Origin: Terebella lapidaria
Taxonomy: Eukaryota > Annelida > Polychaeta > Terebellida > Terebellidae
NCBI GenBank assembly: GCA_949152475.1
Contig: OX424558.1
Coordinates: 36,466,651-36,530,650 of the forward strand
DNA: 64,000 nt
Direction of reading: 5' to 3'
The position numbers were made by a program, and so were the translations under genes. Positions 16,676 through 63,203 of the stretch are shown piece after piece. The notes beneath the pieces were generated by a model. It ran no database searches. It had not been told where the DNA came from and worked only from the letters and a program-made list of their open reading frames with translations. The first letter of the stretch is position 1. Every line of letters begins with the position of its first letter.

Positions 16676-16830
16676 TTAGTTATGCAATTATAATTTCAGA
16701 TAAAAAAATACGTGATACTATTATTAGTTCCAATTGAAATATTCGTTACACAGAATAAATTTATGAAGGAAGTGCAACCCACATATTATATGATATAAAA
16801 GAAATTTCCTTGTCACCGAAGACTCGTGAC
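16676..16830 (+). promoter_or_regulatory. Candidate promoter block of receptor gene A
   Basis: This block is shared with the regions upstream of genes C and D. It contains TTATGCAATTATAAT (about 16,680), then CAATTGAAATATTCGT (16,731-16,746), and a TATA-like GATATAAAAG at about 16,792-16,801 followed by GAAATTTCCTTGTCACCGA. The same order recurs upstream of C and, around an inserted LINE, upstream of D. Conservation across paralogues supports a regulatory role, although recent duplication alone could explain it. Confidence 0.5.
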
Positions 16831-18100
16831 TTTGATAAGAACAGAGACATTAGTCATTGTTACTCATTATATGAATACTATCATTTCTTCCACCCGCATG
16901 TACAATCTACAACAGACGCAACAACGGGTACAAATGATCACAATGAACTACCTGGCATGTATACTTCTCTTCTTGGAGATTTGGGGTACATTTGGAACTC
17001 GACAAGGTTCAGGTAACGTTTCAAGTTATGAATTCATCTTGTGCTGAGGAATTGATAGAGTATTGGTCGAATTATACAATAGTTTTCAATTGTCAGGACG
17101 TATATGAAAAAATGGTGCATATTTTTTTGTAAAAAAAGGTTGAATCTTTGCTGTGAGACTTCAATTTCAACTCAGGTTGTGAGAATGTGACCATCATTGG
17201 CGCCATCACTGAGAACGGTCGATCCCTTGAAGGGACATACCAACGTACCACAACAAAATGCCATGGACGGTTCGTTTACAAAAAGGAAGATACCCACCTG
17301 CACTTTATTGACAATTTCAACAAACCCGACTTCCGAGGGTGGGTGGTTACAAAAAGTCAGTGCAGTGGGAGAGATTCGAGGTATTTTCAAAATAACGATG
17401 CGACATCTCTCCCATACCGAGTGCAGTTACCATGGAAGGAACTGACCGACCGTGGTGTGTTGGTGGATAATCCGAGTCTGAGCGTGGTGTGCTCGGGTTA
17501 GTATTTCAATATGCGTTTTTCTGAACCTTGGAAGTATGTGATTGTTGGAAAAATTCATGAGACACAGTAAAACTCATACTTATATACTTTTACGTCAAAA
17601 CTGGTTCTGACATTTTCAGTTCAGCCAACGCCAGTACCGACATCACATCCGGCTCAATTCAAGTCGACTGCAAAGCCTTTAATGAATGTTCTCAGTAAGA
17701 CAAACTCTCAACCAAGCATGGGAACGGTAGACACAACTCGACCCACCACTTTACTTTCAACCTTCACACCCAGTTCCACAATTGATAGACCCTTCCACAA
17801 AGGTCGCAACAGAGGAAGGAAATGAGTCTACACGCCGGTCTACCGCCAGTAGCACTCGTGAAGTGGAACTTGCACAGAAAGTCTCACCTGCCGAGGTGAC
17901 ATCAAATAGCAGAGAGGTTCCACACACAGGGTCCTGTCACACAATCTTTACTGTTGATGGCGAATTCGTCGAGAGCCCTGAAGACAAAGTATTCTTTGGT
18001 AAAATAAGACATTTTCTTGTTAGCGTACATCTGTAGAAATAATAAGGAAAAGACATATAAAAAAACTAACATGTAATTTCAATTTCACTTTCCGATACAT

Positions 18101-18760
18101 AGACGATGTATTGTCGCTAAATAATTCCAAATTTAGTGATTATTTGGATGTCATATATCCTAAGGAACTTGAAATAAGGATACTACAGACTCCGCTAATT
18201 TTTCCAACTTTCTAGACCAGAGGTTGGAGATTGATAATGATTCTAACTTGTCAACTAGATTATATGACACACGTGATGATTTCAATTTTTCCATAGTCAA
18301 TTTCCCTTTTCTAAGCAGCAACATTCCTATGTCACCGGCATATGGTGTGTTTGTTTCTCAACCTATACGCTATTCCAGAGCTAGTTGCAAATATGAGGAC
18401 TTTGTTTATCGAAGTGCCAGCTAGTCTCTACACTGCTGCGACAAGGATATGTTTTACCAAGAAGCAGCCTTTAAGAAATTCTATGGACGTCATCATGATC
18501 CGATTGATAAATACACCAAATCCACGACTGCCATGCAATAAGATATATTTTCATGTTAATTTTGAGGAATTCATGACGGCATTAGTGGCCAGGAAATGAT
18601 CACTCGTTCCGGAACACCTGTTTTCATGCCTTCGTATGCCTGATAGCCAGGACTATGAGATTGGATAACGGACCCTGTTTTGTTCGCTCGGAATGCTTGA
18701 TACTGGGTATTGATTCTAGGTCTATTAATATTTCTCAATTGGACTGATTATCATGAAATG
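18101..18760 (+). mobile_element. Penelope-like reverse-transcriptase relic in intron of gene A
   Basis: A frame beginning DDVLSLNNSKFSDYLDVIYP at 18,102, and then another with LEIDNDSNLSTRLYDTRDDF (from about 18,224), is the C-terminal half of a reverse transcriptase of the type with an IDD-V-like box and a YLD-L-LEID-like motif. I associate this with Penelope-like elements, with moderate certainty. Later text (KFYGRHHDPIDKY, about 18,470) is in another frame. Frameshifts and stops make it dead. It lies between the stalk and membrane exons of gene A and lengthens that intron. Confidence 0.5.
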
Positions 18761-19064
18761 AGTTGGTACGTTCACAAATAGTATATCCTCACTCAGTCAC
18801 ATTATTTTGTGTATATAGCCGTCCCCACTTAGATGTACCAAAGTAGCGTTATCTTTTCTATCCACAGGCACAATCAAACGATATTTAATATCCATCACAG
18901 CTGTGGCTTTGGCTTTGATGGCTTGTGTTATTGCCCTCGTTTCACGAAGGTAATACGAAACAGAGTGTACTCCGTGAAATTCAATCACTGAAATATATCT
19001 TGCTTACCGATATTTTTAAAATTACAGCTCTGTGAGTGGAATATGTATACCTGGAGTTGAACGT

Positions 19065-19361
19065 ACCGTATTGGTCCTAATAGTGGCACGCGCCCTAATA
19101 GTAGAGCGCCCCCCTCTTTTGCCCAAATATGTTCGATTTTTTAAACCTTATAATTCACTTCATATCTTTCTAATAAGATCTTGGAGTGTTCCAATTCACA
19201 CATCCATGTTATTTGAATCGTAATAAAGAGGATTGATAGCTATAGGTATTTTATTCAGTGATTTTGAAAAAATTTGACCTCAAGTTTGACCCCCTTTTTA
19301 CGCGTGCTGATGCAGGAGGTCTTGCTTTGGCTCGCCGTGCTACTATTAGGACCAATACGGT
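19065..19361. mobile_element. 297-bp MITE with 26-bp inverted ends
   Basis: The left end ACCGTATTGGTCCTAATAGT (19,065 onwards, through GGCACG) is matched by its near-exact complement at 19,336-19,361, with one mismatch. It lies in the intron between the membrane and tail exons of gene A. There is no coding capacity, so it is a non-autonomous DNA transposon of unknown superfamily. Confidence 0.75.
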
Positions 19362-21423
19362 GAATAAGAAATGATGAACAAAAGGAGCTACATCTGTTTT
19401 CCCGTACTTTCAGCTCACAGAAGCGAAAAACATGGGTTCGCAGGAGACAAGTCAGAGCACTGGGGGTAAGTCGGTCTCCATCACAACTGATTGAGAATGG
19501 CCCAGTATCACACCCCAGTTCAACACATACTGTTTTGCGGGCAGTCGGCAGGCAGGAAGACCTTCTGGAGTCTATCAACTTGGAGGATACAGAATTGCAT
19601 ACCTTCATATCAATGACACGCACTGGGAATGTGACAAACTCCAGTCTGCAAAACATAATTTTACGAGATAATTCATGCATAGATGCCATAACTCCAATTG
19701 CCGTGATGATACCTGATGTTTCAGATATCAAGAAGCACCCGGATCAATGTAAAGAGCAGAAACTAGCCGCTGTTTATGATGACGTGCACATTTCTCTACG
19801 GAATGAAGTGTCAATGTCTAGATGTTCCAGATCACAGGCATCGCCCCGAACAACATTGAAGAACAGCAAAGTTCACTATGATGACGTCTATGAGCCTTCT
19901 GGTGGACACCTTGGGCCAAGAGCTCACAAGGCTCAAACTCCACAGAAGAGGTCACCGGGTAAAGAATCTCCTAAATCCACTAAGAGGCTTCAACAAGAAA
20001 TGTAAAAGCCTATGCCAATTTGTGTAGAAAAAAAGGTTGTCTTTGAAGAAAATCCAACAGATCGGGCGTATGAAGATATTGGCATTGATTTGAACATAGA
20101 CAGAGAGGCGTTGCCGCAGGAATTTTTTAAGATCAGTGAATTTCACGGACAATAAGGTGCAAATGAAGTGTGTCTCAGGAGTGTTTATGATGAAATTGAT
20201 ATCTCTGATGGTGATAAGTAAACCAGCAATGCCTCCACGGCCACGAGCAAGTCCCAAGACCAAGTTGGGTGCCATCACGCAACACGGATACGCACCGCCT
20301 GTCAAAGGAAAGAAGACAAACACCCGACAGCATCCACAGTAGCCTTCTGTTTATGTATCCGATCAAAACAAACTCGCCAACTCAGCATATATTCAGATGA
20401 CGTCTTACTTTGGTCAACCCTCCTATGTTGGTGGCGAATATTGGTCTATTCTCCCAAATATTGGTTGCTACGAACTTGCATCACCGATCACACCTTAATC
20501 TGCTCATTGACTAGTTTGACTCATGAGATCGTCAACAGGACTATTTTGATTACATCACAGAAGTGCAATGATGACAGTTGAACAAAGTTGGACTACATGA
20601 TGAAACATGATGAATGCCTTGAAGTGAGGAACTATACTTCATACTACTTGGAATATATACACACGTGTAACACGATCATGATATGACGCATTTGTAATCG
20701 GACATACATACACGAAACACCACAATGTAATTGCACGTCAGTAAAGTTCTGAAGGCATGAGTTCTTCAACCTGCCGAAAAAGTCAATATTGGTTCCGATG
20801 TCATCCGAAAACATCTATAGACTGGAATCGAGCATCTTTTTTAAATGGTATTTGTGGACAGACATGTGAAAAACATAACAATGTAGTCGGACTCGACTGG
20901 ATAGTAATACGGGGTAAGAAGTTCAGACACAGACTTGATGGATAAATATGTGAAAGTCTACACCTTTCGTATTTATGTCTGAATGCCAGTCTGCGGTAAG
21001 AAATCAACGAATATTAGTGTTGGGAAAATAATTCATGTGGAGAAGACTTCTTTGATCATGATTGTGAGAAAGCTAGACAAAAAAATCAAGTGAAATGCTA
21101 TGAACGCGTCCAGAGACTGCAACAAAATCAACCACTGTAGTATGCTACAATATGCCATTGATGTATACATGTATTCCGTTGAAAAAAAAGTTGAAAAAAG
21201 CTGGTATGCCTATGTAATTATATTTATATCTTGATTTATAAATATACTGCTTCACTGTGAGTACACATAACATCGCTCAGCAAACGCTATTTGTATTTAT
21301 GCCGTCACACGGCGAACTATTCTAACATTACACTACATGTACCTCAAAACGTTATCATGCGTTCGATAATTTGTAAAATTTGGGAACACGTCATAAAGGT
21401 TTCACAAAACTGGTCATGTCAGT

Positions 21424-21609
21424 GTAAGTATCAATCTATTACCACCAATACAGTGAGATTTTAATGATGCCAATAACAAACGAAAAATACAATATTTTGC
21501 AATAAAAACAAAGCGCGACCGAATAGTTTATCCAAAGACACACTGGCGTCATCAGGGGCAGACAGTGTCTTAACTGTAGTTGTTTCTACTGTACACCTGA
21601 TGGAATTAG
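21424..21609. repeat. 186-bp direct repeat, copy 1
   Basis: It begins GTAAGTATCAATCTATTACC and ends CTGATGGAATTAG. A second copy of the same length lies at 22,051-22,236 with roughly 80-90% matching by eye. It has no coding capacity. Confidence 0.7.
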
Positions 21610-23135: not shown

Positions 23136-25463
23136 ATGAAAGCTTGGTTCCTGCTGCTACTTTCTATGAAATTTTCTATGAAAGGCTGCCACACAATACG
23201 GGGACCAGGTAAGTTTTTTTTTATACATAATGATGAGGTTGTATTGATAGAAACGAATTTGTAAGATGATAATTCCTCGAAGGAAGACAACAATATTTCT
23301 ACAAATTGTAAAAACAATAATCCTCTGACTCTTGTTTAATGTAAAACTAATGATCGCGAAAAATCCGGCTAAGTGCATTCGTCTCGCAGACATAAGTAAT
23401 GCTATTAGGCCCGTGGTTATACTAGTATATTTGCATTTGATTCCTCACTAGGATGTCAGTATATCCTTCTCGACAACGCTCTAACAACTACGGGCCAGTC
23501 AATGCACGGATTCTATCGAAGGACGACCCCAAAATGCAGTGGGCGATTCGTGTATGAAAAACTTGACGCCAGAGGCCGCTACTATCTGTATTTTGTAGAA
23601 AAACGTAACCTGCACGATTTTCAGGGATGGATTTTAACTAGACGCAGGTGTGAAAAAGAGAATCTTGTCAGGTATATCCTGATAGAGGATGGGTCATTGT
23701 TCCCATACACCGCATTGGGAGAATGGAAGGAATATGGCGGCCCGGGAAACCCCTATGTGGAAAGCCCCAACCTGTCAGTTACTTGTACTGGTGAGTAATT
23801 TGCATGAATTAATCAATCATATATGTAACAGTACTCCTTATTCTCCACACCGTGAATCTTTTGCTGTGCTTGCCGTGAATAATGCTGATTATTCTCATTG
23901 CATGCTGTGATTGAGTAGATCTTAGGCCTTTTCCGACCTCGACAGCTTTTGTTTTTGTTCGCTGTTGGCGTCATCGAAATCTGATTGTGTTGGTGTTACT
24001 GAGATAATACTCTCATTGCTTGTGATGAATTTCGAGATTTGTTATGAATTGGAGGAAAGTTAGTTAATAAAAAAAATGATTTTTCTGTATCCCTTCAGTG
24101 TTGACCACAGAAACAACAGAGACTACTTCAATATATGGCTTCTCTGAGCCACCTACTATCCGATCCGAACCCACTGTACTCCATGGGTCAACAACACGGA
24201 CAGTCAGGATCGAATCAACAAAATCCCTATTCACAAAGAAGTTCAACAGTATAACCTCTAGCTCAACTGTATTCACAACCACTTCCAAAGAGCAAGCACG
24301 AGAAACCACCGGGCAAATTACTGAAGTTCCACCTACACTTGAATCTAGTAGTAGTGCAGAAGATGTTGAAGTCAACCATGAAACAGGAAGCACTCCAGGC
24401 TTTTCACGAGCTACACGTTCTCCAACATTCGTTCTTGAAATCACCTCGCACGCCGAAACACACAAGACCTCCACAACTATACTGCCGATTCCAGATCACC
24501 AAAACGATACTGGAGGTGCAGATGATATTGGTAGAAATACATCATTTATCTTACCCAACAGTAATGTTACCCGTGATAGCCTTTCACTATTTTTCATGAT
24601 GATTTTCTATCAGTCGGGGCATGTGTCACGTACATTGTAAATATATTTCTGACAGAGGATGACTTGAGGTCATTGATCTATGCGGTAGTCGGCGCCATCA
24701 GTGGGCTCTGTCTCGTGCTGGTCACAATAGCAACAGTCGGCGTGTGTTTCTGCTATCGCAAGTACAGGTATTTAACATTTTAACCGTTAATATGTTACAC
24801 GTTTTACCGATGATAACTAGTGATAGGAATAGCACCATTTTTAAAATCTGATGAGTATTGTATGAAAGGAATCAAAGACTTTTATTTCACTATATGACTC
24901 AATTCGTTTTAAACTCACGCACATTCATTCTGATACTGATAATCAAGTGTCATTCAATCTTCTTGCTAAGGATGACCACTTCTTCTATCAACTTGAACAG
25001 ATTCAACAGGAGAGGGCAGGATGATGGTGAACAACCGAAAGAAAATGCTACTGGTCCAGAATTGTCAAATTTACTTGATCGGCGTTCACTGGATGCTCCC
25101 ACAAATGACTTCACAATTGGTCAGGCCAAGCTCACGCTAAATCGGTCAGCGATATTCGTAGACATAGACTTGAAATCCAACGACGCATCGCCAAAGAATT
25201 CCCCAGAAGCCAGTATTGGATCTGTGTATAGCGAGTTAGACCAAGCCAAGATGTACACGTCATTGGAAGGTCGGGAGCCAGCCGTCCCTGGGGTATACTG
25301 TAGCAGTTTGGGAGATACCTCCACTGCAACATATGTGAATAACACAACCAATAAAACGGTAACATCTAGTCCTGACTACGACGAGTCTGTACCTACTACA
25401 GTTTGCGTCTATGAAAATATGGGTGAAATACAAGTGGATTCCAGTTACATCACAACTTGCTGA
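23136..25463 (+). CDS. Receptor gene B: four-Cys domain, mucin-like stalk, TM, tyrosine-motif tail
   Basis: Five exons: 23,136-23,208; 23,452-23,790; 24,099-24,560; 24,656-24,767; 25,001-25,463. All junctions fit GT-AG with phases 1, 1, 1 and 2, giving 482 residues. A signal peptide (MKAWFLLLLSMKFSM) leads to the four-Cys domain at residues 25-137, then a Thr/Ser-rich stalk (about 138-291), a membrane helix (IYAVVGAISGLCLVLVTIAT) and a basic stop-transfer YRKYR. The tail (about 329-482) has a canonical ITIM-like SVYSEL, then MYTSL nine residues later, a YVNN (Grb2-type), and VYENM (YxxM, PI3-kinase type). SH2-domain proteins are the likely partners. A tandem acceptor (ACAG/AACAG, 9 bp apart) could make two tail forms. 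No break is visible. The ectodomain family is not one I recognise. Confidence 0.85.
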
Positions 25464-26640: not shown

Positions 26641-26654
26641 ATACATATATCACA

Positions 26655-26843: not shown

Positions 26844-29800
26844 AGGTTATGGACCTGTATTGATTTCCTTATATGGTCAAAATGAGGCATCAAAGTACTA
26901 TATTATTTAAAAACTCCCAGTTTCTCCTCCAAATGCACATGTATCACTTTAAAATGTCTCTGTTTTGGTTTGTATAGTGGTATTATGGGTATTCCTCTAT
27001 GTACATGTGAATTTTCATGTTGATTGGAGCTGTTACTGTGCGCATGAATACATATAAACAAACCGGCCCTTTCTGGGAGTTTGCTTTCTGAGGAATTCGC
27101 CAGGTGTCAGCAGCTAACAGTCAAATGCTTGTAGCGTTTGATCTATTCCAACAACATGTGCTGATTTTTAAATATTTTGTAACTTATATATATTGCTTCA
27201 ACATACTGAAATCTTATGAAAATTGAAACATTTTGAAAGTGATTTCTCTCATAAAACGTTATAATGGAGTTAAATGGCAATCATATATGTGTTTGTATAC
27301 CTAAACCGAGGACATGGAATTTTGTGTATTATAGATTTTTAGCAGGTTTTGTGGCATTTCTTTAATTTGTGTGTGGATAGTGTGCAGTATTCATGAATTT
27401 TTCACCATTGCAACCATAATTTTCGTTCACGTGGATTTTTATTACATATGTAGGATTATATCTACATGCTAATAGCGGCGGTGTTTATCCCCCCCCCCCT
27501 TTGAATGCTAAAGACATGGAGTTAGTGCCTTTTCATTTTCTTTATTTTCATATAGTACCCAATATTTCAAATCACTGTAAAATATTATACACTTTCACTG
27601 AGGACTACTGGACTCAGACACAGCCTAACCGAAAAAGGTGTCGAAATGACCACCAAAAATTGAACGGTGGATAATACTAGGTGTCTCTGAAATTCATCAC
27701 CATAACCTATATAGTCGATCATAAATAAGCTAGGTTAGGCATTGCGGAATGCATTTGGTATATTATTTGCAATTTTGGCACCATATCTTGTCAAGTACGC
27801 ACTTTTCCGATTTTTTTACCATATTTTTTTTTCGATATTGCCGTAGAACCACATTTTTGACCCCATATGTGTCTCTTGCCGTTTGATCGATTGCAGTCCA
27901 TCATATAAATGTGTTTCATGAATAAATTTTATACAGCACATAAATTAGTCCCCTGTACAAGGCACCTATGTGACCTAATGTCGGTGATCTCTGGCTTACA
28001 GAAACCATATTTTCAACAAATTGTCTACGTTTTTGTGTTTTGTCAAGATTAAAACTTTGGAATTTTTGCTTAATTTATAAATATACTATATTGAGAGTGT
28101 GGTGGTAGCATTTTGCGACATTTGAATACTATTGGTGTAGACAGCAGTATGGTAGAAAGTGTTGGGTGCTAAGCAGCGGGGTAGGACTACCAACTCTTTT
28201 AGAATTTTGACATATTTAGTCCAAGGGGAATCAAACTGATGGTAATATATGGGTGAATAATACATTTATCTGAAACAAACCCCAAATTGTCCTTGAGCAT
28301 GTTTGATCGGGCGTCAAATCAAAATTTCCAAAGAAAATCTCACTTTTTTGTTCAAAATATTTCCTTTCTTAAGTGCAAAAATCACTGTTTTATTTCTTCT
28401 CTACAAGTCTTCCCTTTTCACATAAGAGCTCAATAATTGGGGATTATCACCTATGTATGTGGGGTGTTATAATTGTAAAATGTGAAGAAAATTGCCATTA
28501 ATTAAGGTTATGGACCTGTATTGATTTCCTTATATGGTCAAAATGAGGCATCAAAGTACTATATTATTTAAAAACTCCCAGTTTCTCCTCCAAATGCACA
28601 TGTATCACTTTAAAATGTCTCTGTTTTGGTTTGTATAGTGGTATTATGGGTATTCCTCTATGTACATGTGAATTTTCATGTTGATTGGAGCTGTTACTGT
28701 GCGCATGAATACATATAAACAAACCGGCCCTTTCTGGGAGTTTGCTTTCTGAGGAATTCGCCAGGTGTCAGCAGCTAACAGTCAAATGCTTGTAGCGTTT
28801 GATCTATTCCAACAACATGTGCTGATTTTTAAATATTTTGTAACTTATATATATTGCTTCAACATACTGAAATCTTATGAAAATTGAAACATTTTGAAAG
28901 TGATTTCTCTCATAAAACGTTATAATGGAGTTAAATGGCAATCATATATGTGTTTGTATACCTAAACCGAGGACATGGAATTTTGTGTATTATAGATTTT
29001 TAGCAGGTTTTGTGGCATTTCTTTAATTTGTGTGTGGATAGTGTGCAGTATTCATGAATTTTTCACCATTGCAACCATAATTTTCGTTCACGTGGATTTT
29101 TATTACATATGTAGGATTATATCTACATGCTAATAGCGGCGGTGTTTATCCCCCCCCCCTTTGAATGCTAAAGACATGGAGTTAGTGCCTTTTCATTTTC
29201 TTTATTTTCATATAGTACCCAATATTTCAAATCACTGTAAAATATTATACACTTTCACTGAGGACTACTGGACTCAGACACAGCCTAACCGAAAAAGGTG
29301 TCGAAATGACCACCAAAAATTGAACGGTGGATAATACTAGGTGTCTCTGAAATTCATCACCATAACCTATATAGTCGATCATAAATAAGCTAGGTTAGGC
29401 ATTGCGGAATGCATTTGGTATATTATTTGCAATTTTGGCACCATATCTTGTCAAGTACGCACTTTTCCGATTTTTTTACCATATTTTTTTTTCGATATTG
29501 CCGTAGAACCACATTTTTGACCCCATATGTGTCTCTTGCCGTTTGATCGATTGCAGTCCATCATATAAATGTGTTTCATGAATAAATTTTATACAGCACA
29601 TAAATTAGTCCCCTGTACAAGGCACCTATGTGACCTAATGTCGGTGATCTCTGGCTTACAGAAACCATATTTTCAACAAATTGTCTACGTTTTTGTGTTT
29701 TGTCAAGATTAAAACTTTGGAATTTTTGCTTAATTTATAAATATACTATATTGAGAGTGTGGTGGTAGCATTTTGCGACATTTGAATACTATTGGTGTAG

Positions 29801-30622
29801 ACAGCAGTATGGTAGAAAGTGTTGGGTGCTAAGCAGCGGGGTAGGACTACCAACTCTTTTAGAATTTTGACATATTTAGTCCAAGGGGAATCAAACTGAT
29901 GGTAATATATGGGTGAATAATACATTTATCTGAAACAAACCCCAAATTGTCCTTGAGCATGTTTGATCGGGCGTCAAATCAAAATTTCCAAAGAAAATCT
30001 CACTTTTTTGTTCAAAATATTTCCTTTCTTAAGTGCAAAAATCACTGTTTTATTTCTTCTCTACAAGTCTTCCCTTTTCACATAAGAGCTCAATAATTGG
30101 GGATTATCACCTATGTATGTGGGGTGTTATAATTGTAAAATGTGAAGAAAATTGCCATTAATTAAGGTTATGGACCTGTATTGATTTCCTTATATGGTCA
30201 AAATGAGGCATCAAAGTACTATATTATTTAAAAACTCCCAGTTTCTCCTCCAAATGCACATGTATCACTTTAAAATGTCTCTGTTTTGGTTTGTATAGTG
30301 GTATTATGGGTATTCCTCTATGTACATGTGAATTTTCATGTTGATTGGAGCTGTTACTGTGCGCATGAATACATATAAACAAACCGGCCCTTTCTGGGAG
30401 TTTGCTTTCTGAGGAATTCGCCAGGTGTCAGCAGCTAACAGTCAAATGCTTGTAGCGTTTGATCTATTCCAACAACATGTGCTGATTTTTAAATATTTTG
30501 TAACTTATATATATTGCTTCAACATACTGAAATCTTATGAAAATTGAAACATTTTGAAAGTGATTTCTCTCATAAAACGTTATAATGGAGTTAAATGGCA
30601 ATCATATATGTGTTTGTATACC
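26844..30622. repeat. 1.66-kb tandem repeat, two full copies plus a partial third
   Basis: Unit starts are at 26,844, 28,505 and 30,165 (spacing 1,661 and 1,660 bp; the only difference I saw is in the length of a poly-C run). The third copy stops at about 30,622 after 458 bp. The unit is AT-rich and non-coding in all frames. Near-identity means very recent amplification, or an assembly expansion or collapse at this place. Confidence 0.95.
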
Positions 30623-32605: not shown

Positions 32606-32639
32606 ATATAGCTAAACCAAATATGACAATGTATGTCTA

Positions 32640-33061: not shown

Positions 33062-36000
33062 ATGAACTATCTGCCATGTATACTTCTCTTCTTGGAGATT
33101 TCGGGTACGATTGGAACTCGGCATGGTCCAGGTAACGTTACAAGTTAAGAGTTCACATTTTGCTGAGGAATTGATCGTATTAATATTTTTCAAGTGTCAA
33201 GACGTATATGAAAACCACGGAAACCCAGAGAGGACATTTGTCTCAATAATTTATCTCGCCTCGGCAAACTGCTAACTTACCTCAGCGTACTGCTAACTAA
33301 CCTCGGCGAAATCCTAACTGCAGCCGTTTCAAAATAAATACAATAACTGGCAACTTAGAGATTACAATTGGCTGAACAGTTCGCCAATAAGAGGGGAGTT
33401 AGCAGTTGGCCGAGGCTATAGTAAGGAGTTTGCCAGTTGAGATAACAGTTTGACGCTGGTTAGGAGCTCACCGAGGTGAGTTACTATTTGGGCAAGGCGA
33501 GATAACAGGTCACCAAAGCAACATATCAGTTGGTCTAAGGGAGACAGCAGTTCCCGGGATGAGATAAACTATTGGGGGCAAATGTACTAGAATCTGGGCT
33601 TCCGTTAAAAACGGTGCAATTACTTGTAAAAGGTCAAACCATTTGTTGTCAGACTTCTATTGCAACTCAGGTTGTGAGCATGTGAACATCACCGGCACCA
33701 TAACTGAGTACGGTCGATCTCTTGAAGGGACATATCAACGTACCACAACAAAATGCTATGGGCGGTTTGTTTACAAAAAGGAAGATACACGAGGAAGTTA
33801 TCACCTGCACTTCATTGACAAAATAAACAAATCTGACTTCCAAGGCTGGGTGGTTACAAAAAGTCAGTGCAGTGGGAGCGATTTGAGGTATCTGCAGAAT
33901 AACGATGCTACATTTCTCCCATACCGAGTGCAGCTACCATGGCAGGAACTGACTGGCCGTGGTGTGTTGTTGGACAACCCGAGTTTAAGTGTGTCATGTG
34001 CGGGTTAGTATTCCCGCATATATATGTTTTTTTAATCTCAAAACTCCGCGATAGATGGAACCATTTATGAGACACAGTCAGTGTGTCATTCCGTATACCT
34101 GATATTTTCAGATCAACCAACTCCAGTTCCGACATCAACTGCACGTCAATACAGACTGACTCCTAAGACTCCAGTGGATGTTCCCGAGAAGACACGCTCC
34201 AAAATGATCACAGGAAGGACAGACACGAGTGAATCCACTGATTCGTCTGCAAAGTCCACACACCCAAGTTATGTCACAACAGAGGAGGCTCCAGAGACTC
34301 CAGTGGATGATCACGTGACGACAGCTTCCACAATGACCACAGGAAGTGCAGACACAAGTCGATCCACTGAATCATCTTCAGACTCCAAACACCCAAATTA
34401 TGTCACAACAGAGGAGGCTCCAAAGACTCCAATGGACGCTCCCGTGACGACAGCTTCCACAATGACCACAGGAAGTGCAGACACAAGTCGATCCACTGAA
34501 TCATCTTCAAAGTCCACACACCCAAGTTATGCCGCAACAGATAAGGGAGCGACCCCTGACGTCAGCATGGTCTTTGGTAAATAGAGAAACTGAGAAATAA
34601 TGAAAGTGTGCATGAATATTGATGAATGGAGCAGGTGCTTCGTGCGCTTGAATTGTGACATTCATGAGATACCATCAGAGAAGATCCAGTACCTGATTGC
34701 ACTTAATTTGGAGTCCATGTATTGCATTCACCAGCATGATGGTACACATTTTTCAGTTTGTATAATTAATCGCAATAGATGCTTTGCAAGTGACGTCATA
34801 ACGTTTTTCTTCTCTATTTATGACGCCATACTGGACGGCAAAATCCCCAGTGAAATCACAATAGAATCGACAAACACTGGACGTTGTACATGATTTTGCC
34901 GTCCAGTGTGACGTCACAGCAGAGCATCTATGGGCGTATTTTATTTGTACGGATCAGAAATCTGATCCCGGATCAGAAAACTGATCCCTACGAAAAGTGT
35001 ACGGATCATGATTCCGATCAAACAATTTTGGGATCAGAAAGATCAGAAATTGTTACGAATGGTTGCTTGATATCAAAACCTGATAATGAAGTTTTACTTG
35101 ATTGACCTAGTCCATGCTTGTCCTTTAGATTGTCAGTGTAGTATATTTAACTGACAAACCATCTTGAAATAAACCATCATGAAATAAAAGGGGTGAATTC
35201 TAAGTTGGAACATGATGTGTCTTATGCCTAAGTCACATTTGCACAGGCCGTCGGCCGATGTCGGGACATCGGTGATATTTTCCGATGTTCCGGCCGCCGG
35301 TGATAGTTTGTCAGGCATCTATCCCATATCTTTTGAGTGGTCATGAAACCACCAGGCACTGTCCACCGATCACCGCTATATTCACCTAGCTATGATCACG
35401 ATTCTTTCTTGAAATTTCAAGAATTTCAAGAAAAACTGACGAAACAACGATGCCCTATTGGAGACCACATGATACTCTACCGATACCTGCTCGGTAACCG
35501 TCCGATATGTACAAATCGGCCGATGATCTGAAGGGCACCTATCGGACATTCATCGGCGCCCGGTAGGATATCCCTCGGTGATCGTCTGGTTAGCTACCCA
35601 CATTGGTCGACAAAAAAAAAGGTCGATCCCTCGGCATCTGGTGGGCATCTGAAGGGGCGGTCGCCGGCAGGCGTACTAGCAATTAACCTATCGCCAAACC
35701 AGTTTGTCCGAGTCTTTTTTACGTCATTCTCGACAAATTCTGCAAAACGTTATTATTGGCCAAAGAGAAGTTTGCCGACGTAATATGTGCAACTCGGACA
35801 ACTTTTTGGGGTTTTGGCGATAGGTCAATTCACTACCGATGTCATTTTTTCCTCCGGTCGCCACAAGAAAATAACTCTGCGTTATTTTCTTCCGATGCCT
35901 CCACTGGCGTGTCTACGATGTCCGATTATTGCCCGATGGCCACGAATGATCTAGCCATGCTCGGTTGGTGACCGACCGAGATCGCCAAATTTCAGCCTTT

Positions 36001-37688
36001 TCGGGTATCGTATCCTAATCTGCGTAGGCATCGGTGCAAATGTGACTTAGGCATTACTGGGTACATTATGATTTAGCTGCATGTGATAGACCATGATTAC
36101 CAAACTAACCAACATATTACTGTACGCTGTAGGCCTACGTACGGAATCGTTATATTTTTGTTTGTGTTCAAATATGTTCAGGTTACCTAGCAACTATTAT
36201 TGATCACTGATCAGGAATCGGGATCAGACATTTTTCTGTACGGATCAGAAGTCTGATCTTGAATCAAGATAACATGTTTTTATTTGTACGGATCAGAAAC
36301 CTGATCCCGATACAAATAAAATACGCCCTATATGTACTCCAGTATTTTTTTTCAGGCAGTCGTATCTAGTGGAATATAATGCTGCCCAGTCAACAATTTG
36401 ATCTCACGCTTACCTCACAGTTACCTCAAATTCAGAAAAACAGCAAGGTCACAGTGTGACATCGTCGTGACCTCAAACTGTCACCCCTCATCGAACTCAC
36501 ACCGACGTCACAGGTGTGACGTCTCTAGCGGCGCAAAATAGAGAAACTTCATTTCATGTGATGCATGCAGAATCGGAAATAATATTAACAAATAATAATA
36601 TGTGCCATACATTACGCATAATAGCGTCACAAAGTCTGCGCAAATGGTGTATCATGGCTGATTCTACGTGAAAGTCATCCATAACTCATGCCCACCTCAA
36701 ATTCCGACTTTTCCAATCAATTATTATATTAATTACACATCGACCATTTTTTTTATATCACGGTAATATCACATTTGTGATGTCATATCTGAGATGTCAT
36801 CGTGTTATCACATCGACCTCATGCCTTTGAGGTCACAGTTGTGAGGTCCCTGTGACATCACAACAATATCACGTTTTTGATACCATTATGAGGTCATAGT
36901 GACATCACATCGACCTCACACGATAGAGGTCACTGTTGTGAGGTCACAGTGATATCCCTGTGGCATCACGAATATGACATCAAAGATGTGAGGCGTGTGT
37001 GATATCACTGTGAAGTTGTGTGATGTCACGTGTTGACTGGGTGTATATCTGTAATTTGGTGATTTATGTTTCTCTCTGACTCGATGTCCTCTTGATACCT
37101 CCTTTGTCAGATGTTGAGTTCAAGTGGCTACTGTATGCTGTGACTGGCGCTCTGTTTAGTGGTCTGTTCCTGATGGCCTCAGCGTGGATGTGCTCTTCTG
37201 TCTGCAGGTAATTTCTGCAGTCCATCCCAAGGCAAACACGTATAGAAATGTAGTTATCAATGTAGGCCTACATATTATTTTTTTTCAGGAAGCAACAACG
37301 TGATCAGCGCCCTGAACCAATCGAAACTGGCAACACGGCTGCCACAATAGAGAACCATGTGACCAACCAGTATCAGAACCATACGAATTTACGGCTCCCA
37401 AGTAGACCGAAAAATCAAAATCAAAGAGACACTACAAGCTTCACATATGATGAACTGGACGAAAGCAAGATGCAGAGATGGTTGATAAGAGGGAAGTACC
37501 GAGTGGGGGCGACAATGAGAGGTCCATGTAACCCAGACAGGTTCGGGGCCTCCAGCACGGGACCCCCGCATTTGGATGTAGATACAGGTCACCCTGCAAA
37601 TTACTTACAGCATGCTGAAGACAGTTTCCAGGTTGATGGTGCTGAAATTGAAACGGGTGTATACATAACCACAAATAACATCGAATGA
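33062..37688 (+). CDS. Receptor gene C: A/D-like ectodomain joined to a B-like tail
   Basis: Five exons: 33,062-33,131; 33,671-34,003; 34,112-34,576; 37,111-37,207; 37,289-37,688. Phases are 1, 1, 1 and 2, giving 454 residues with no break. The signal peptide MNYLPCILLFLEISGT and the four-Cys domain (residues 24-134) are near-identical to those of A and D. The stalk (135-289) is three 43-residue repeats rich in Thr and Ser. The membrane helix (LLYAVTGALFSGLFLMASAW) and the tail instead resemble gene B: FTYDELDESKM matches B's SVYSELDQAKM, but B's second tyrosine motif is replaced by QRWL. VYITTN near the end is a further possible phosphosite. Intron 3 is 2.5 kb because of nested insertions. 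It is probably a type I membrane receptor; the ligand is unknown. Confidence 0.85.
34168..34554 (+). repeat. 129-bp coding repeat x 3 in the stalk of gene C
   Basis: Three in-frame copies of a 43-residue unit beginning TPVDV, TPVDD and TPMDA. Each contains a TMTTGSADTSRSTESSS-like Ser/Thr run and HPSYVTTEEAP or a variant. Copies 2 and 3 are the most alike. The length of such a stalk would be expected to vary between alleles, and it is likely O-glycosylated. Confidence 0.85.
34819..34914. repeat. Hairpin in intron 3 of gene C
   Basis: Left arm near 34,829-34,845 (CTGGACGGCAAAATC) and its complement near 34,891-34,906, extended by GACG(C/T)CA(T/C) words on both sides. It is a small MITE-like palindrome just left of a larger inverted-repeat element. 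Confidence 0.6.
35224..36054. mobile_element. Nested inverted-repeat element (second level)
   Basis: Perfect 21-bp ends: ATGCCTAAGTCACATTTGCA(C) at 35,224-35,244 and the complement at 36,034-36,054. The interior has many CGATG and CATCGG words. It lies entirely within the 34,932-36,328 element and itself contains a hairpin at 35,686-35,826. Confidence 0.8.
35686..35826. mobile_element. Nested hairpin (third level)
   Basis: Arms are ACCTATCGCCAAACC plus GTTTGTCCGAGT on the left and their complements on the right (near 35,790-35,826), with about 80 bp between. It sits inside the second-level element. Confidence 0.6.
36385..37041. mobile_element. CCCAGTCAACA MITE, copy 2
   Basis: About 657 bp, the same family as 31,640-32,301 and in the same orientation, with small deletions relative to it. 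It lies in intron 3 of gene C, 70 bp before the membrane exon. Confidence 0.8.
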
Positions 37689-46580: not shown

Positions 46581-46911
46581 ACAGTATCCCACACTTATGA
46601 CACTTATGCTTACCACATGTGATGAAAAACAACAACAAAACTCAGCAGCGATTCACCAACTTTACACTAAAGAAATACTGGCTGTTTTGAACATTTCCAA
46701 TATTTTCATAGATGTGTCCACTGTTTGTGTTTGCGGTGAGGTATCTTATGGGAAGTTAGACTTACCTACTTGTCAGTTTTGAGCGTCCGATGCCTACGCC
46801 ACTCAATTATCGCCCACTGTGTACTTGCCTGGACGAAGGTCACGCTCGAACGAACGCAGTCACCAATCAGTTATCCATCCCCGTTGTGTTTTATTATACA
46901 ATGTTGTGAAC

Positions 46912-48084: not shown

Positions 48085-48085
48085 T

Positions 48086-51628: not shown

Positions 51629-51764
51629 ATGTATTTAATGTGAATCATCCATCTTCATGTTCTCATCCATTAATACTGTACGTTGTTGTTGGTAATATCT
51701 GTTGTTGTTTTACTGTTGTTTTTCTTGATTTCTGTCTCCAATGCCCCAGACCAGGGGTTACATG

Positions 51765-51947
51765 AGAAAAATAAATATATAAATCCCAAGAATTTCCTTG
51801 TCACTGAGAACACGTGCATTGGATTCGAACAGAGGCACTATTCATTGGTGCTCACTCGAAAAAATCAATTTCTATCCAGGCATGTAGAAGACGTAACACA
51901 GAATACAGCAGACGTAACACAGAATACACAGTTTTTTAATGATCGTA
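51765..51947 (+). promoter_or_regulatory. Start-site region of receptor gene D
   Basis: AAGAATTTCCTTGTCACTGA at about 51,788 matches the sequence just downstream of the TATA-like box of gene A (GAAATTTCCTTGTCACCGA). In D the TATA-like AATATATAAAT at about 51,772 falls in the 3' tail of the inserted LINE, so the LINE may now supply that element. The ATG follows at 51,948. Confidence 0.35.
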
Positions 51948-54860
51948 ATGAACTACTTGTCATGTATACTTCTCTTCTTGGAGATTTCGGTTACGATTGG
52001 AACTCGGCATGGTACAGGTAACGTTACAAGTTATGAATTCACATTGGGTTGGGGAATTAATAGAATACATCATCGAATTATGAACTATATTTCAATTGTC
52101 AAGACGTATGTCAAACGGTGCATGTTGCTTGTAAAGGTCAAAGCCTTTGCTGTAAGACATCAATTTCAACCCAGGTTGTGAGAATGTGACCATCACGGGC
52201 GCCAAAACTGTGTACAGTCGATCCCTTGAAGGGATATATCAAAGAATCACAGTTGAATGCCATGGACGGTTCGTTTATAAAAAAGAAGATGCACGAGGAG
52301 ACTATCATCTGCACTTCATTGACAAATTCAACAGATCTGACTTCCAAGGATGGGTGGTAACTAAAAATCTTTGCAGTCAGAACGATTTAAGATATTTGCA
52401 GAATAATGATGCAACGAATTTCCCATACCAAGTGCAGTTGCCTTGGAAGGAACTGACTAGCCGTGGTGTGTTGTTGGAAAATCCAGACTTGAGTTTGACG
52501 TGCACAGGCGAGTATTTCAATATCCATTTCCTGAACCTCCAAAATTAACTCAAAAGTGACATTTTGGATCTGAATATTCCTGAGACAGTCAAATCAGTGT
52601 CTAGTCACCTGTAAGTTTCAGTCCTTGTTTTTGTCTAGAATATCACACCTCAGATTGTATTGTTTGTTATCCATTTCAATCCTCATTTGAGAACTTTGCA
52701 TATTTTCCTTTTCCATTGGTTGGACTGACATTGCAGTTCAACCAATCCCAGTACAGACATCACAATCAGCTCTATCCAGGCTGACTCCAAAGCCTCCAGT
52801 GGATGTTTCAACTGAGACATCCTCTCTATCAAGACTAACTTCGAAACCTCCAGTGGATGTTTCAACTGAGACATCGTCTCCATCCAGACTGACTTCGAAA
52901 CATTCAGTGGATATTCTCGTGAAGACAACCTCTCAATCCAGGCTGACGTCAAAGCCTGCAGCGGATGTTCCTTCGAAAATAACATCATCAGCGACCAGCG
53001 AAAGGGAAGACAAGGTTCAACTGATATCTTCAACCTCCGCGGCCAATACCACAACTGATACACCATTCCCAAACCCGAGTCACGTCACAGGCCAGGAAGG
53101 AATCGACCATACACACCAGTCCATCACCAGTGGAACTCGGGAAAGGGAGATCAACAAAACGTTTCAATCAACTAAGAGGGCACCAACTGCCGAAGGCATT
53201 CTCTCCACCGAGAATAGTGATGAAAGTGTCACTGTTGATGGCAAAGTTATCGAGATTCCTGGCGTCAACGTAATCTTTGGTAAAACTACATTTGACGATA
53301 TTTTCTTTGTGTACATGGAAAAGGAAAACAAACATTACGCAAGTCCAGCCTTCTATGTATTAGATGGTACATTCACTCAATCACATATAGGCATATAGCT
53401 GTGTCATCACCATGGTTGTTGTACCAGGTAATATTTGTATTTGCAGGCACAATCGAGCGGTATTCGATCTCCATCACAGCTGTGGCTTTAGCTTTGATTG
53501 CTTGTGTTATTGCCCTAGTCTCAAAAAGGTAACACAAAAGAGAGTGTACTTAGTAAACTCTAAATACATGTGTATCTTTCCATACCTTTGATAACGTTAG
53601 CTAGTGAAAGTCTAGTATTTCTTCCTGATGTAAAGCATGATTTTTGGTTTGTCATTTTTCACTGAAAATAACACATATTTGACCATGGAAAAAAGGGCAC
53701 AGAAACACATTTGAACTGAAATAGACTATATTCACAGATCACGAAAGGGAAAGACCAGGGTTCACAGGAGACAAGCCAGAGGACGAGAGGTAGTCCGGTC
53801 ACCACCAGAACTGAATGAGTATACCACAGTACCAGACCCCAGTCCAACTCATAGAGTTCTATGGGCAGTCAGCAGACAGGAAGACTATCTGGAGTCCATC
53901 AACTTCGAGGATCCGGAACTCCATACCTTCTTATCGCCGGCATGCAGTGGGAATGTGGCGACCGCTAGTCTACAGACAGAACGTACGCCAGACAATTCTT
54001 GCAGAGTTGCCTTAACTCAGATTGATGTGCCAGATGTCAAAAAGAAACTGGATCAATCCAAAGAGCTGAACATAGGCGCTACTTATGATGATGTGTACAT
54101 GAATGAAGTGCCAATGTCTAGAAGACACAATTCAAAGCTGCTGCCCCAAACACAGAAGAACAAAATCCATTATGATGACGTGTATGTATCCTCTAGTAAA
54201 GATCTTGAGGCAACACCTCGAAAGCCTCTATCCTCTCCCAAGACGAGGTCAACAGAGAAGAAACCACCTAAATCGACTAAAACACGTCAACGAAAGACGA
54301 AAGAGCACGCGTCAACGTTTGTAAATGTCTTGGGAGCAAATTCAGTAAATCAAGCATACGAGGAAGTCGACATGAATGTGAGCAGTAACAGAGAAGCGTC
54401 GGCAGAGGACTTCGGAAGATCAGTAACTTTCAAAGGCAAGAAAACACAACTGAAGAGTGTTCCAGGTGCAGCCACGAAAGAAACTGAATGTGTTTATGAT
54501 GCAATCGATATCTCTCATGGTGAAACCAATAAGAGTAAACCAGCCATGCATCAGTTGCCACGAGCAACACCCGATGCCCAATCGGGCGCCATCACCAAGC
54601 GCAGACACGAACTGCCTGTCGAGGGGAAGAAGACAAACCACCAACATCATCCACAGCAGCCTTCTGATTATGTATCAGATCAACACAAACTCGACGGCGT
54701 GTATTCAGATGACGTGCTCATCTGTGACAATTTTAATTATGATGACAAAGATGTTGAGCAAACGTCCTACCTTGGTCAACCTTCCATTGCTGGTGGAAAT
54801 CATCGAGCTCTTCTCCCAAACACTGGTTGCTATGAACTTGTATCAGCGAACAAACTTTAA
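51948..54860 (+). CDS. Receptor gene D: four-Cys domain, repeat stalk, TM, long multi-tyrosine tail
   Basis: Five exons: 51,948-52,017; 52,175-52,507; 52,737-53,279; 53,447-53,528; 53,738-54,860, giving 716 residues with no stop. Phases are 1, 1, 1 and 2. The donor of exon 2 is GC (G|GCGAGT), the others GT. Layout: signal peptide (MNYLSCILLFLEISVT), four-Cys domain 24-134, Thr/Ser stalk 135-315 with four 18-residue repeats, membrane helix (SISITAVALALIACVIALVS), then SKRSRKGK and a 374-residue tail. The tail carries EYTTV, TYDDV, IHYDDV (ITIM-like), AYEEV, VYDAI, VYSDDV and CYELV, spaced out among Lys/Ser/Pro-rich sequence. This suggests several SH2-binding sites. It is the longest and best-preserved member with this tail type. 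Confidence 0.87.
52778..52993 (+). repeat. 54-bp coding repeat x 4 in the stalk of gene D
   Basis: Four 18-residue units of the form RLTxKPPVDVSTETSSxS. The first two differ from each other at only a few positions, while the last two are more diverged (HSVDILVKTTSQS, PAADVPSKITSSA). Likely an O-glycosylated, length-variable spacer. Confidence 0.85.
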
Positions 54861-55857: not shown

Positions 55858-56390
55858 AATTAATTGGTTGATTGTGTAGCTTTATCATTTCTTTCGCTTC
55901 AGATAATCGCAGTACTATCCAAGTAATACAATAAACTGATTTGTCTTGCTGGATGGCAGTAGTTAATTTAATCTTGAACTTCCTGGTCCATTTGCTACAA
56001 ATCGTCATTCCTCACGATAAAGCCGTGACATCAAACAAGATCAGTTGTGTACCATGGAGCTTGAATTCTTAATTGTAGTAACATTGACGTCATACCAGCT
56101 GGTGACGTACAGTTCTGGATTAGCAAATGGCAGAGGTAAGGTATCATTAACCAAGAGTAACACACAAGCATTTCAAGAAAGGCCGTGAGTACAAAAGTGA
56201 TGGTCTTGTGAAAATCTCCTGTACGCTGCAATGTAATAATCGCCTGTAACTTTTCTTGGCGTCGTTCTGTGTGTCATATGAGAAGTTTGTTCCAAATCTT
56301 AAACTCCAAATCCTTAAAAATATAAATAGGAGGTGTGAGAACTGGTATCCTCTCTTTTTCTCGTCTCGTCCCAGGCTGCCCAGCTTCTGC
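55858..56390 (+). repeat. 530-bp block duplicated at 62,357-62,886
   Basis: Near-identical to the 5' part of gene F, covering upstream sequence, the signal-peptide exon, intron 1 and the first few codons of the domain exon (CCAGGCTGCCCAGCT). The match stops at 56,390. This marks a recent segmental duplication within the cluster. Confidence 0.9.
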
Positions 56391-56693: not shown

Positions 56694-56699
56694 GTGTAG

Positions 56700-58039: not shown

Positions 58040-59831
58040 AATGTGATAACATACTGATACAAAACGCGGTAACGAATAACGGTCAGAAGCTTCAAGGCAA
58101 CTTTCACAGAAATGACCACACGTGCTCAAGTAGAGATGTCTTTCAAAGGGACTACAACAATAAAATATACTTCCTACACTTTGTTGAGAGAAGTGTCTTG
58201 GGAGGCTTTCAAGGATGGGTTGTTACAACCAGCGTGTGTGACAAAAATGGCAATGGGTATTTCTTCGTGGAAGACGACTCGTTACACCCATACACAACTT
58301 CGGGACTGTGGAAGGAATATGGAGGACCTTCTAGAACTTCAGTGGAAAATCCAGATCTATCTGTACAATGTGTAGGTCAGTAGTAGTACACATTTTCAGC
58401 ACACCTGTTTGTCTTATGTATGAAAAACGCAATCCAATAAAATTATTGGTAATTGCCATCACTCACATACTCCACATATATAGTATATGATTGGATGCAT
58501 TACTTAATTAAAATCCACCCAAACAGATGGAAGACATACCCTGTCCCCTGACTTAGCAGAAGTAGATTCGACGGTGATGAGTAAATATGAAGTAACTCAC
58601 ACATATCGGACAACAGATGTTTCCACAATTAGTGCCAAGAAACCAACATCGTCAACCACAGCGTCTCCAGGCAACATCTTCCAGAAACATCCGCTATCCT
58701 CAACATCCATTGTGGCGGTTGCCTTGGCACTGATCGCTTTCATTGTAGCTCTCTTCTCCAGGAGGTAGATCCAGTTGTGGTGAAAGAGTATTCTTAATCA
58801 GTTGTTTACGTTCAAGCATGGTATATATTTAGATATATATTTAGATAAACTATTCTCTCATCGAAACGTCATCAGTTTTTAAGTGCTAGAAATCAAATTG
58901 TTGCCATCCGAATACCGTACTATAGGATTTGACATATAATGCATTAATTTATGCAAAAACGAAGATATTCAAAATATTACGACCTCTTTCGCATCTTATG
59001 CCAGTGATACATACAAATACTTAATATTTTTACAGATGCCACAATCGAACGGCGACGTCTCAACAACAGCGATCTCACATTGGAAGACGCCGCTCACCGA
59101 TCTACTCAAGAATGTGTCGCTACTTCCACTACAGACCTAGCAGATGGCTTCCGGAAACACCAACTGTCCGTGACTCTATACACTTGGACGATGAAGAGCT
59201 GTACTCCTTCACGAGACAACACAACGCGAGTCATGCAGCTGTCAGTTCCACTGATAGCTCAGGCCTCGTGGCTTCTAGGGGAACTCGGAGCCGTGGGGAT
59301 GTCGTTGATGTGGAGAACGATGGAGCTGCTTTACATGACACAGTACAAGTCGAATATATTCAGACCTCTGAGAACCCAGACACCACTCTCACAAAAACTG
59401 AAGTAAAAGGCGATTGCCTTTATGAAAACGTGAGCTGTCACACTGACGCTGCTTCAGGGGAACATACAATGTCGATGCTACCTGGAATCGACGCAGAGCA
59501 TTTATCAAGTGCAAGTCACTTGATGCACGAATGTGAAAACGAGACGCACGAATATGAAAACCGTGAATATGCTGGAGATCATGCTAAATGCAGAGCCGAA
59601 TCCTCACAAGACAAACACACTTATTCCCTCGCTGGTATGACTGGCGCCTATGAATCAATCAGAGAAAGTCGAATGGTGAACTATGATTTACAGTCAGTTA
59701 GCAATGGGTGTGTTCCCGCAGCTCAAGCGTCTGAATGTTCCACATATGGAGATGGTCGATGCAGAGCTTCTCGGGACTCGGACCTCTCCCAGCAATACGA
59801 AGACATCATTGAAGCCGATATGAAATATTGA
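58040..59831 (+). CDS. Receptor gene E: four-Cys domain, short stalk fused to TM, tyrosine-motif tail
   Basis: Exons 58,040-58,375 (domain), 58,527-58,764 (stalk and membrane together) and 59,036-59,831 (tail), with phases 1, 1 and 2. The first exon is not certain; 56,054-56,135 has the right phase and would give 483 residues. The domain has the four cysteines (first gap x26, second x37, third x43) and LWKEYGGP as in B. The stalk is only about 50 residues and runs straight into the helix (SIVAVALALIAFIVALFS), where genes A, C and D have an intron, so that intron seems lost. The tail (265 residues) has LYENV, AYESI and QYEDI plus EYEN and TYSLA, and its membrane-near IHLDDEELYSF matches the INFEDPELHTF of D. 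Open throughout. Confidence 0.72.
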
Positions 59832-62008: not shown

Positions 62009-62081
62009 ATGGACTCGTTGGAGAAGTTGTTGCCATTCACTCTGACGTTTATTGTTACCAGTAAATTCGTGTCGTCATCAG
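62009..62081 (+). other. Orphan signal-peptide exon
   Basis: ATG at 62,009 opens 24 codons, MDSLEKLLPFTLTFIVTSKF and VSSS, then a phase-1 donor G|GTAGGT. Length (73 bp) and phase equal those of gene B exon 1. It is followed not by a domain exon but by a diverged piece of the inverted-repeat arm seen at 42.2 and 46.0 kb. It may be an alternative first exon of gene F or the remnant of a lost gene. Confidence 0.45.
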
Positions 62082-62164
62082 GTAGGTTGTAATAACTAGA
62101 TTAAAATGTAAATATTGATCATAAATAAATATTGCCCTTGTAGGTCGATCAAGCAAGAGTTATC

Positions 62165-62360
62165 GTAACTCCAACTCCCGTGTAGAGATTATTGAAATAC
62201 GGAAGTTTTTGAAAACGACGATGATTGTAATCACCTTGTCAAAATTGGGTTAAATATCTGCGGAAGAAACCTTATTTCTGGGGAATATCAGCCGCTACTA
62301 ACATTCGTAAATTACATAAACGGGCAGTAGTATCTCAGACATCGTAGCACCCCCTCAGTC
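62165..62360. repeat. Solo diverged copy of the 42.2/46.0-kb inverted-repeat arm
   Basis: The words AACTCCCGTGTAGAGATTAT, GAAGAAACCTTATTTCTGGG and CCCCCTCAGT match the right arm at 46,065-46,260 with scattered differences. Only about half of the arm is present. Confidence 0.7.
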
Positions 62361-62552
62361 AATTGGCTGATTGTGTAGCTTTATCATTTCTTTCGCTTCA
62401 GATAATCGCAGTACTATCCAAGTAATACAATAAACTGATTTGTCTTGCTGGATGGCAGTAGTTAATTTAATCTTGAACTTCCTGGTCCATTTGCTACAAA
62501 TCGTCATTCCTCACGATAAAGCCGTGACATCAAACAAGATCAGTTGTGTACC

Positions 62553-63203
62553 ATGGAGCTTGAATTCTTAATTGTAGTAACATTGACGTCATACCAGCTG
62601 GTGAGGTACAGTTCTGGATTAGCAAATTGCAGAGGTAAGGTGTTATTAATAAAGAGTAACACGCAAGCATTTCAAGAAAGGCCGTGAGTACAAAAGTGAT
62701 GGTCTTGTGAAAATCTCCTGTACGCTGCAATGTAATAATCGCCTGTAACTTTTCTTGGCGTCGTTCTGTGTGTCATATGAGAAGTTTGTTCCAAATCTTA
62801 AACTCCAAATCTTTAAAAATATAAATAGGAGGTGTGAAAACTGGTATCCTCTCTTGCTCTCGTCTCGTACCAGGCTGCCCAGCTATGGAGGTCAGTGGCG
62901 TCGTGACTCCATCTGGGAAGTCACTGGAAGGTCAATACACGCGCCAGGGTACCCTCTGCCACGGTCGATATATTTACGTAAAACCATCAGACGAAGGCAG
63001 GGAATATGTATTACACTTTGTACAGAACCAGGCTGGGCGTGTCTTCAAAGGCTGGGTGGTGACTGGAACCAGATGCAATCCCAGTGATACCTTATGGTAC
63101 CTGGAGAATGACGACGAATCGTCCTTGTTTCCTTACAAAGCTTGAAGCACATGGAAGGAAATGAGTTCTGTGGAAAACCCCGATTTGAGAGTGGAATGTC
63201 CAG
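62553..63203 (+). pseudogene. Receptor gene F, 5' part, interrupted
   Basis: Exon 1 is 62,553-62,634 (MELEFLIVVTLTSYQLVRYS); exon 2 is 62,874-63,203 and encodes the four-Cys domain with gaps x26, x38 and about x40. GRYIY, YVLHFV, GWVVTG and NPDLRVEC are conserved. One in-frame TGA at 63,143 falls where B and E have a small residue before the conserved WKE, so the protein would end early. Exon 2 ends in a normal phase-1 donor (CCAG|GTAATT), and a LINE begins 23 bp later. No stalk, membrane or tail exon is seen before the window ends. It is either a pseudogene or a nonsense allele whose remaining exons lie beyond the right edge. Confidence 0.6.

Follow-up and report, generated by a model that had tools for sequence, protein, structure and literature searches.

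A tandem cluster of candidate receptor genes joining one four-cysteine domain to two classes of tyrosine-motif tail in the annelid Terebella lapidaria

The 64,000-nucleotide stretch of the Terebella lapidaria genome analysed here (the window; C4:36466651-36530650, contig OX424558.1 of assembly GCA_949152475.1, which holds 761.6 Mb in 438 contigs) contains a tandem array of genes, labelled A to F, that are predicted to encode single-pass receptors with a four-cysteine ectodomain, a mucin-like stalk and a tail rich in tyrosine motifs. Scaffold labels (C4, C8, C11 and so on) and locus labels (L009-L056) refer to the same assembly. A first-pass annotation, made from the letters alone, had placed the array at 16676-63203; its start lies upstream of the first coding exon (16934), and its end is the donor of the F domain exon. 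Exon joins and splice sites of the gene models were checked by script, and the features are as follows.

16934..17012 (+), A exon 1, signal peptide (by eye); GT donor, phase 1
17176..17496 (+), A four-cysteine ectodomain exon, phase 1-1, from splice model and alignment
17620..17998 (+), A stalk exon, frameshifted and decayed, from splice model
18868..18949 (+), A class I membrane-helix exon
19414..20005 (+), A class I tail, interrupted by stops; remnants to ~20523
23136..23208 (+), B exon 1, signal peptide (by eye)
23452..23790 (+), B ectodomain exon, phase 1-1
24099..24560 (+), B mucin-like stalk exon
24656..24767 (+), B class II membrane-helix exon
24971..25463 (+), B class II tail with YSEL, YTSL, YENM and YITT
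33062..33131 (+), C exon 1, signal peptide (by eye)
33671..34003 (+), C ectodomain exon, D-type
34112..34576 (+), C stalk exon with three 129-bp repeats
37111..37207 (+), C class II membrane-helix exon
37289..37688 (+), C class II tail with YDEL and C-terminal YITT
51939..52017 (+), D exon 1, signal peptide
52175..52507 (+), D ectodomain exon, GC donor
52737..53279 (+), D stalk exon with 54-bp repeats
53447..53528 (+), D class I membrane-helix exon
53738..54860 (+), D class I tail with 13 tyrosines, six in YxxV/I/L
55862..56385 (+), gutted F-type copy, head: upstream region and signal exon 56054-56135; 97.5% identical to 62361-62884
58040..58375 (+), E ectodomain exon
58527..58764 (+), E short stalk and class I membrane helix in one exon
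59036..59831 (+), E class I tail
62553..62634 (+), F exon 1, signal peptide (by eye)
62874..63203 (+), F ectodomain exon with one in-frame TGA

Members B, C, D and E can be read as open models from ATG to stop (492, 454, 719 and 483 aa, respectively). The order of signal, domain, stalk, helix and tail exons is common to B, C and D, and in E a single exon holds both stalk and membrane helix. All six domain exons in the window are phase 1-1, and the helix exons of B, C, D and E end in phase 2; the D domain exon has a GC donor (52507-52508), and the other five copies have GT. Signal peptides were called by eye and by simple hydropathy, with only that of D passing the cut-off for a 19-residue window, a cut-off that all four membrane helices (B, C, D and E) pass. 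The helices of these four genes have no charged residue inside, and their stalks contain 32-38% serine plus threonine and no cysteine. The first-pass description of one-strand tandem members sharing an architecture is borne out by these models, by the phase 1-1 domain exons and by the invariant cysteines described below. It had listed B, C and D as intact, and all three are open; E was not so listed, yet its exons are open too, with an uncertain start. Its calls of decay in A and F likewise hold (e.g., a stalk frameshift and stops within the tail of A, and one TGA inside the domain of F, of which only the first two exons fall in the window).

The gutted F-type copy near 55.9-56.7 kb, whose head matches F at 97.5% over 524 bp and serves as the first exon of the E model, is taken to be the gutted copy reported in the first pass. 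The match breaks off 11 bp into the F domain exon, and the sequence beyond the break matches another locus of the family, L051, starting there close to where the F-type helix frame ends. At L051 a candidate signal exon precedes the E-type domain, and no counterpart of that exon was found in the window. E looks like the product of exchange among copies: either it has been fused to a borrowed signal exon or its proper start is missing. The possibility that F and E belong to a single two-domain gene was set aside because the F-type domain of L051 seems to precede a stalk, a helix and a third short tail of its own (open frames only) and because the E-type candidate signal exon is present there. 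Two further stretches, at 42.35-42.54 kb (minus strand) and 46.06-46.26 kb, match the upstream region of F; neither overlaps a receptor exon, and both have the appearance of dispersed repeats.

All four ectodomain cysteines are invariant across the six members in the window when the TGA of F is read through. Among 12 domains drawn more widely (B, C, D and E plus others, one of them partial), C2, C29, R32 and W60 are invariant, and C67 and C110 are nearly so. Identity among the A-E domains ranges from 33-82%, with D and C at 74%. Pfam scans of the domains of A-F, that of F being truncated at its stop, gave no immunoglobulin (Ig), C-type lectin, SRCR or LRR match at E<=5; with the 12 domains none of these was among the families listed and nothing rose above noise, and whole B and D gave no match at E<=0.01. 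In NCBIfam nothing rose above noise (best E 0.027, in one of 12 members), and single-sequence and profile searches of PDB sequences found no match at E<=10. The Ig, lectin, SRCR and LRR assignments were rejected for want of profile support, in agreement with the first pass, and the domain matches no named family in the libraries searched. An AlphaFold model with B as query, built from window sequences only, is all beta (mean predicted local distance difference test score, pLDDT, 71.8; predicted template modelling score 0.69), an earlier fold with D as query having been poor (pLDDT 63). Searched with Foldseek, the B-query model has no match in the PDB better than E=0.2. The top match in a viral library is the Clandestinovirus protein A0A8F8PN15 (template modelling scores 0.53/0.56, probability 1.00, E=0.017), a lead and not a result, given 17% identity, an E-value above 0.001 and an uncharacterised viral protein. 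Among the literature matches listed, no title describes such a receptor family in molluscs. The proposal of an undescribed receptor system fits both these libraries and these titles; the immune or self-recognition role attached to it is no more than plausible.

Further copies, which the first pass had suggested seeking, are numerous. A search of the assembly with the D domain gives 62 matches at E<=1, with 52 on C4 and 10 on six other scaffolds (C8, C11, C13, C14, C15 and C17); all matches on C8, C14 and C15, and one of the C13 pair, are weak (E 0.01-0.6). A ten-domain family profile matches all six of these scaffolds; it already held members from C11, C13, C14 and C17, so that only the C8 and C15 matches are independent. 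Fifty of the C4 matches resolve into 47 domain loci (20 on the plus and 27 on the minus strand) in one 0.8-Mb cluster at C4:36.484-37.286 Mb, of which the window is the left edge, and two more lie near 30.8 Mb. A C17 member used as a query reaches the C4 family at E ~1e-6. With the same query, a second, diverged group of the domain is seen at L043 and at C14:33.97-34.08 Mb (nine C14 matches). Chance resemblance is excluded because the A-E domains are 33-82% identical and 47 loci share one cluster. Among the 30 loci L009-L038, five pairs align over >3 kb at 98-99%, indicating that part of the expansion is either recent or an assembly duplicate. It is very improbable that the expansion is mostly dead, i.e., a few functional receptors among many neutral duplicates. 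The decay of A and F, the rearranged head of E and the stops in four of 42 full-length domain matches in the cluster would suit such a history, as would the five of 26 C-type tails on C4 with no ectodomain within 8 kb upstream (the other 21 sit 0.8-3.3 kb downstream of one on the same strand). Against it, 38 of the 42 full-length matches are stop-free, and the ratio of nonsynonymous to synonymous substitution (dN/dS) in D-type ectodomains is well below 1.

The membrane and tail modules fall into two unlike, recurrent classes, and ectodomain subtypes D and F are each found with both. Class I comprises the D-type and E-type tails, whose helices are 68% identical (E=4e-7). The D tail has five matches in the assembly (D itself, two near C4:30.8 Mb, and A as two broken pieces), and the E tail has six, one with a TAG. 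Class I tails carry many tyrosines (A, D and E), with proline- and lysine-rich stretches as well in D; of the seven listed, five have 13-14 tyrosines, L050 has 9 and the first open stretch of A has 3. Class II tails (B, C and the 28 further C-tail matches) are short, with a YxEL motif resembling an immunoreceptor tyrosine-based inhibitory motif (ITIM) and a C-terminal YxxT, and B and C are put in one class mainly because they share this motif order. The B tail has three matches and the C tail 29 (26 on C4 including C, two on C11 and one on C61). The tails of D and C show no significant alignment (E=0.5) despite ectodomains that are 74% identical, and D-type ectodomains occur both with class I tails (D, A and C4:30.81 Mb) and with class II tails (C and others). 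Similarly, the F-type ectodomains of L050 and C11 are 78% identical, with an E-type tail at L050 (58% to E, one TAG) and a C-type tail on C11 (45% to C). These mixed combinations, together with the F-type head of E, bear out the birth-and-death family with reshuffled heads, stalks and tails proposed in the first pass. The family is larger and more structured than first noted, with one domain and two unlike tails.

These genes probably form a lineage-specific lophotrochozoan family of type I single-pass paired receptors that would signal through phosphotyrosine docking. If the genes are expressed, the small four-cysteine beta domain, held on its mucin-like stalk, would bind an extracellular or cell-surface ligand, after which the tail tyrosines would be phosphorylated and SH2 proteins recruited. 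The tyrosine-rich class I tails would act as scaffolds, and the class II tails, with YxEL and the C-terminal YxxT, would be a second, short output module. Introns of the same phase would permit exchange or deletion of exons, placing one ectodomain subtype on either module. Paired receptors would result, responding to similar ligands with differing outputs, perhaps of different sign, as do recognition receptors of vertebrates and tunicates.

Tyrosine motifs and their conservation are consistent with this reading. In the four window tails pooled (B-E), YxxI/L/V occurs 12 times against 5.65 expected from shuffles (p=0.006), and in the D tail alone six times against 2.1 (p=0.009). For Y-D/E-[DENS], a pattern picked once the tails had been seen, the count in the four tails is 11 and the expectation 1.7. 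Between D and its relative at 30.82 Mb, 12 of 13 tail tyrosines are kept compared with 207 of 374 residues (p=0.005), and between the class II tails of B and C11 the figures are 7 of 7 and 105 of 164 (p=0.04). In an alignment of 21 class II tails (19 C-type and two B-type, 18 distinct; shorter pieces from L018, L024, L039 and L040 were dropped, and the L018 and L053 rows are truncated), the six invariant columns among the 84 with >=19 residues are S87, Y90, E92, L93, Y170 and T173. Tail tyrosines are under constraint in most of the comparisons made.

Several results, from the tails and from the ectodomain, weigh against phosphotyrosine-signalling paired receptors. The enrichment of YxxI/L/V over shuffles is not significant in B, C or E singly. 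The union of the B and C tails in one class is only marginal (tails E=0.05-0.07; helices 40%, E=0.002). In the comparison of E with the L050 tail, 9 of 14 tyrosines are kept, no better than other residues (p=0.35). The restriction of invariance to six columns in the class II alignment needs the two B-type rows, since the 19 C-type rows alone leave 18 of 87 columns invariant (the same six and twelve others). The strict ITIM consensus, [SILV]xYxx[ILV], fits only 9 of the 21 class II YxEL sites, the other 12 having F at position -2, and in the four window tails pooled it occurs twice against 1.4 expected. YxEL also fits a possible AP2 endocytosis signal (YxxPhi), which raises the alternative of endocytic or scavenger receptors using YxEL as a sorting signal for ligand uptake. 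This is unlikely: YxEL, unchanged across all 21 class II tails, would suit AP2 binding, but the 13-14 tyrosines in five of the seven class I tails exceed sorting needs, and the C-terminal YxxT has no hydrophobic residue at +3.

For the ectodomain, the comparison used 28 stop-free D-type domains of 112 residues (other lengths and those with stops were dropped), giving 24 distinct DNA sequences and 276 pairs, with a mean dN of 0.104 and a mean dS of 0.288. The median dN/dS is 0.39 (pairs with dS 0.01-2), and dN exceeds dS in 3 pairs. Since the ratio is below 1, there is no average sign of diversifying selection, and the pattern is one of constraint and not of an arms race. Where a locus has a full C-type tail, constraint is weaker on the tail than on the ectodomain (median dN/dS 0.53 versus 0.32). 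Of the 10 most variable positions in the D-type ectodomains, 5 are no more than three residues away from Cys29 or Cys67 (p=0.001, in a test chosen after looking), and they may form a ligand face. Purifying selection on the D-type ectodomains, and a single domain on a mucin-like stalk, would also be expected of a cell-adhesion or gamete-recognition family in which the domain mediates cell-cell contact, the tails tune adhesion, and expansion follows from sexual or tissue-specific selection instead of defence. We regard such a family as rather doubtful, as a pair of exchangeable tail classes in which tyrosine motifs are conserved has the look of signalling outputs.

Paired receptors of the kind favoured here have known counterparts. 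In vertebrate KIR and LILR families, similar Ig ectodomains carry alternative signalling tails within one birth-and-death cluster, and the activating forms have charged helices and use adaptor proteins. The present family resembles them in placing one ectodomain subtype on alternative tails, and differs from their activating forms in the uncharged helices of B-E. A more specific reading, held only tentatively, is a recognition system with the logic of vertebrate natural killer receptor clusters, in which an undescribed four-cysteine domain, with a fold perhaps also present in giant viruses, would be joined as an exon to activating or inhibitory tails. Among invertebrates, the excerpts available of reports on Biomphalaria describe GRC and PTC2 as resistance clusters rich in single-pass membrane genes; the extracellular parts of GRC proteins are beta-rich, with >50 residues flanking the helix at either end (PMC4361660), and PTC2 proteins lack known domains other than the helix, as well as homologs beyond gastropods (PMC7494358). 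In GRC, four genes encode fibronectin III domains and some are similar to chitinase or to a tyrosine phosphatase, and both regions are linked to parasite resistance and extreme haplotype divergence (PMC4361660, PMC7494358). A gene on the B. sudanica PTC2 contig is annotated with an SHP2-interacting adaptor domain (PMC10875847), and other snail resistance regions hold receptor phosphatases and G-protein-coupled receptors (PMC12297450). The present family is likewise a cluster of single-pass genes with >50 residues on either side of the helix; unlike it, GRC and PTC2, compared by description and not by sequence, have no four-cysteine domain or tyrosine-tail classes in those excerpts. Botryllus FF/FcoR are clustered type I receptors whose tails carry ITIM, hemi-immunoreceptor tyrosine-based activation (hemITAM) or lone YxxI/L/V motifs, with an output sign thought to vary by member (PMC12065747). 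They share clustering and tyrosine-motif tails with the present family and differ in that FcoR ectodomains are Ig and sushi and the FF and FcoR partner genes lie side by side (PMC12065747). The layout resembles that of the snail clusters and tunicate receptors and is otherwise known from immune or self-recognition receptors. Recognition is the best guess at function, and an immune or allorecognition role is plausible.

Other elements lie around the receptor exons. Between C and D, adjoining the upstream region of D, is a long element of non-LTR (long terminal repeat) type (46783-51628), whose open frame of 1191 residues matches RVT_1 (E=3.8e-30) and, weakly, an endonuclease. Repeats include three near-identical 1.66-kb units at 26844-30464, of which a 401-base piece has >=40 matches at 99-100% on many scaffolds, and an array of ~13 copies of a 148-bp unit at 43024-44974. 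A 346-codon open frame at 11316-12356 (-) looks by eye like a seven-helix receptor and has no Pfam match at E<=0.001. Elsewhere in the assembly, one myosin exon has 3i5f as its best relative among solved structures, followed by 1dfk, 1dfl and 1b7t (squid and scallop myosins), a similarity that pointed tentatively to a mollusc-like animal. L055 (C150) and L056 (C186) contain myosin heads interrupted by many TAA/TAG codons; only with these read through is the head nearly complete on C150 and mostly so on C186, as though the contigs came from a contaminating organism in which stop codons are reassigned, for instance a ciliate.

If phosphotyrosine-signalling paired receptors are indeed encoded here, a protostome would have independently built paired receptors of the activating/inhibitory type on a non-Ig domain. 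The family would then provide a concrete gene set for asking how animals without antibodies tell self from foreign, and a further candidate cluster beside the snail resistance loci.

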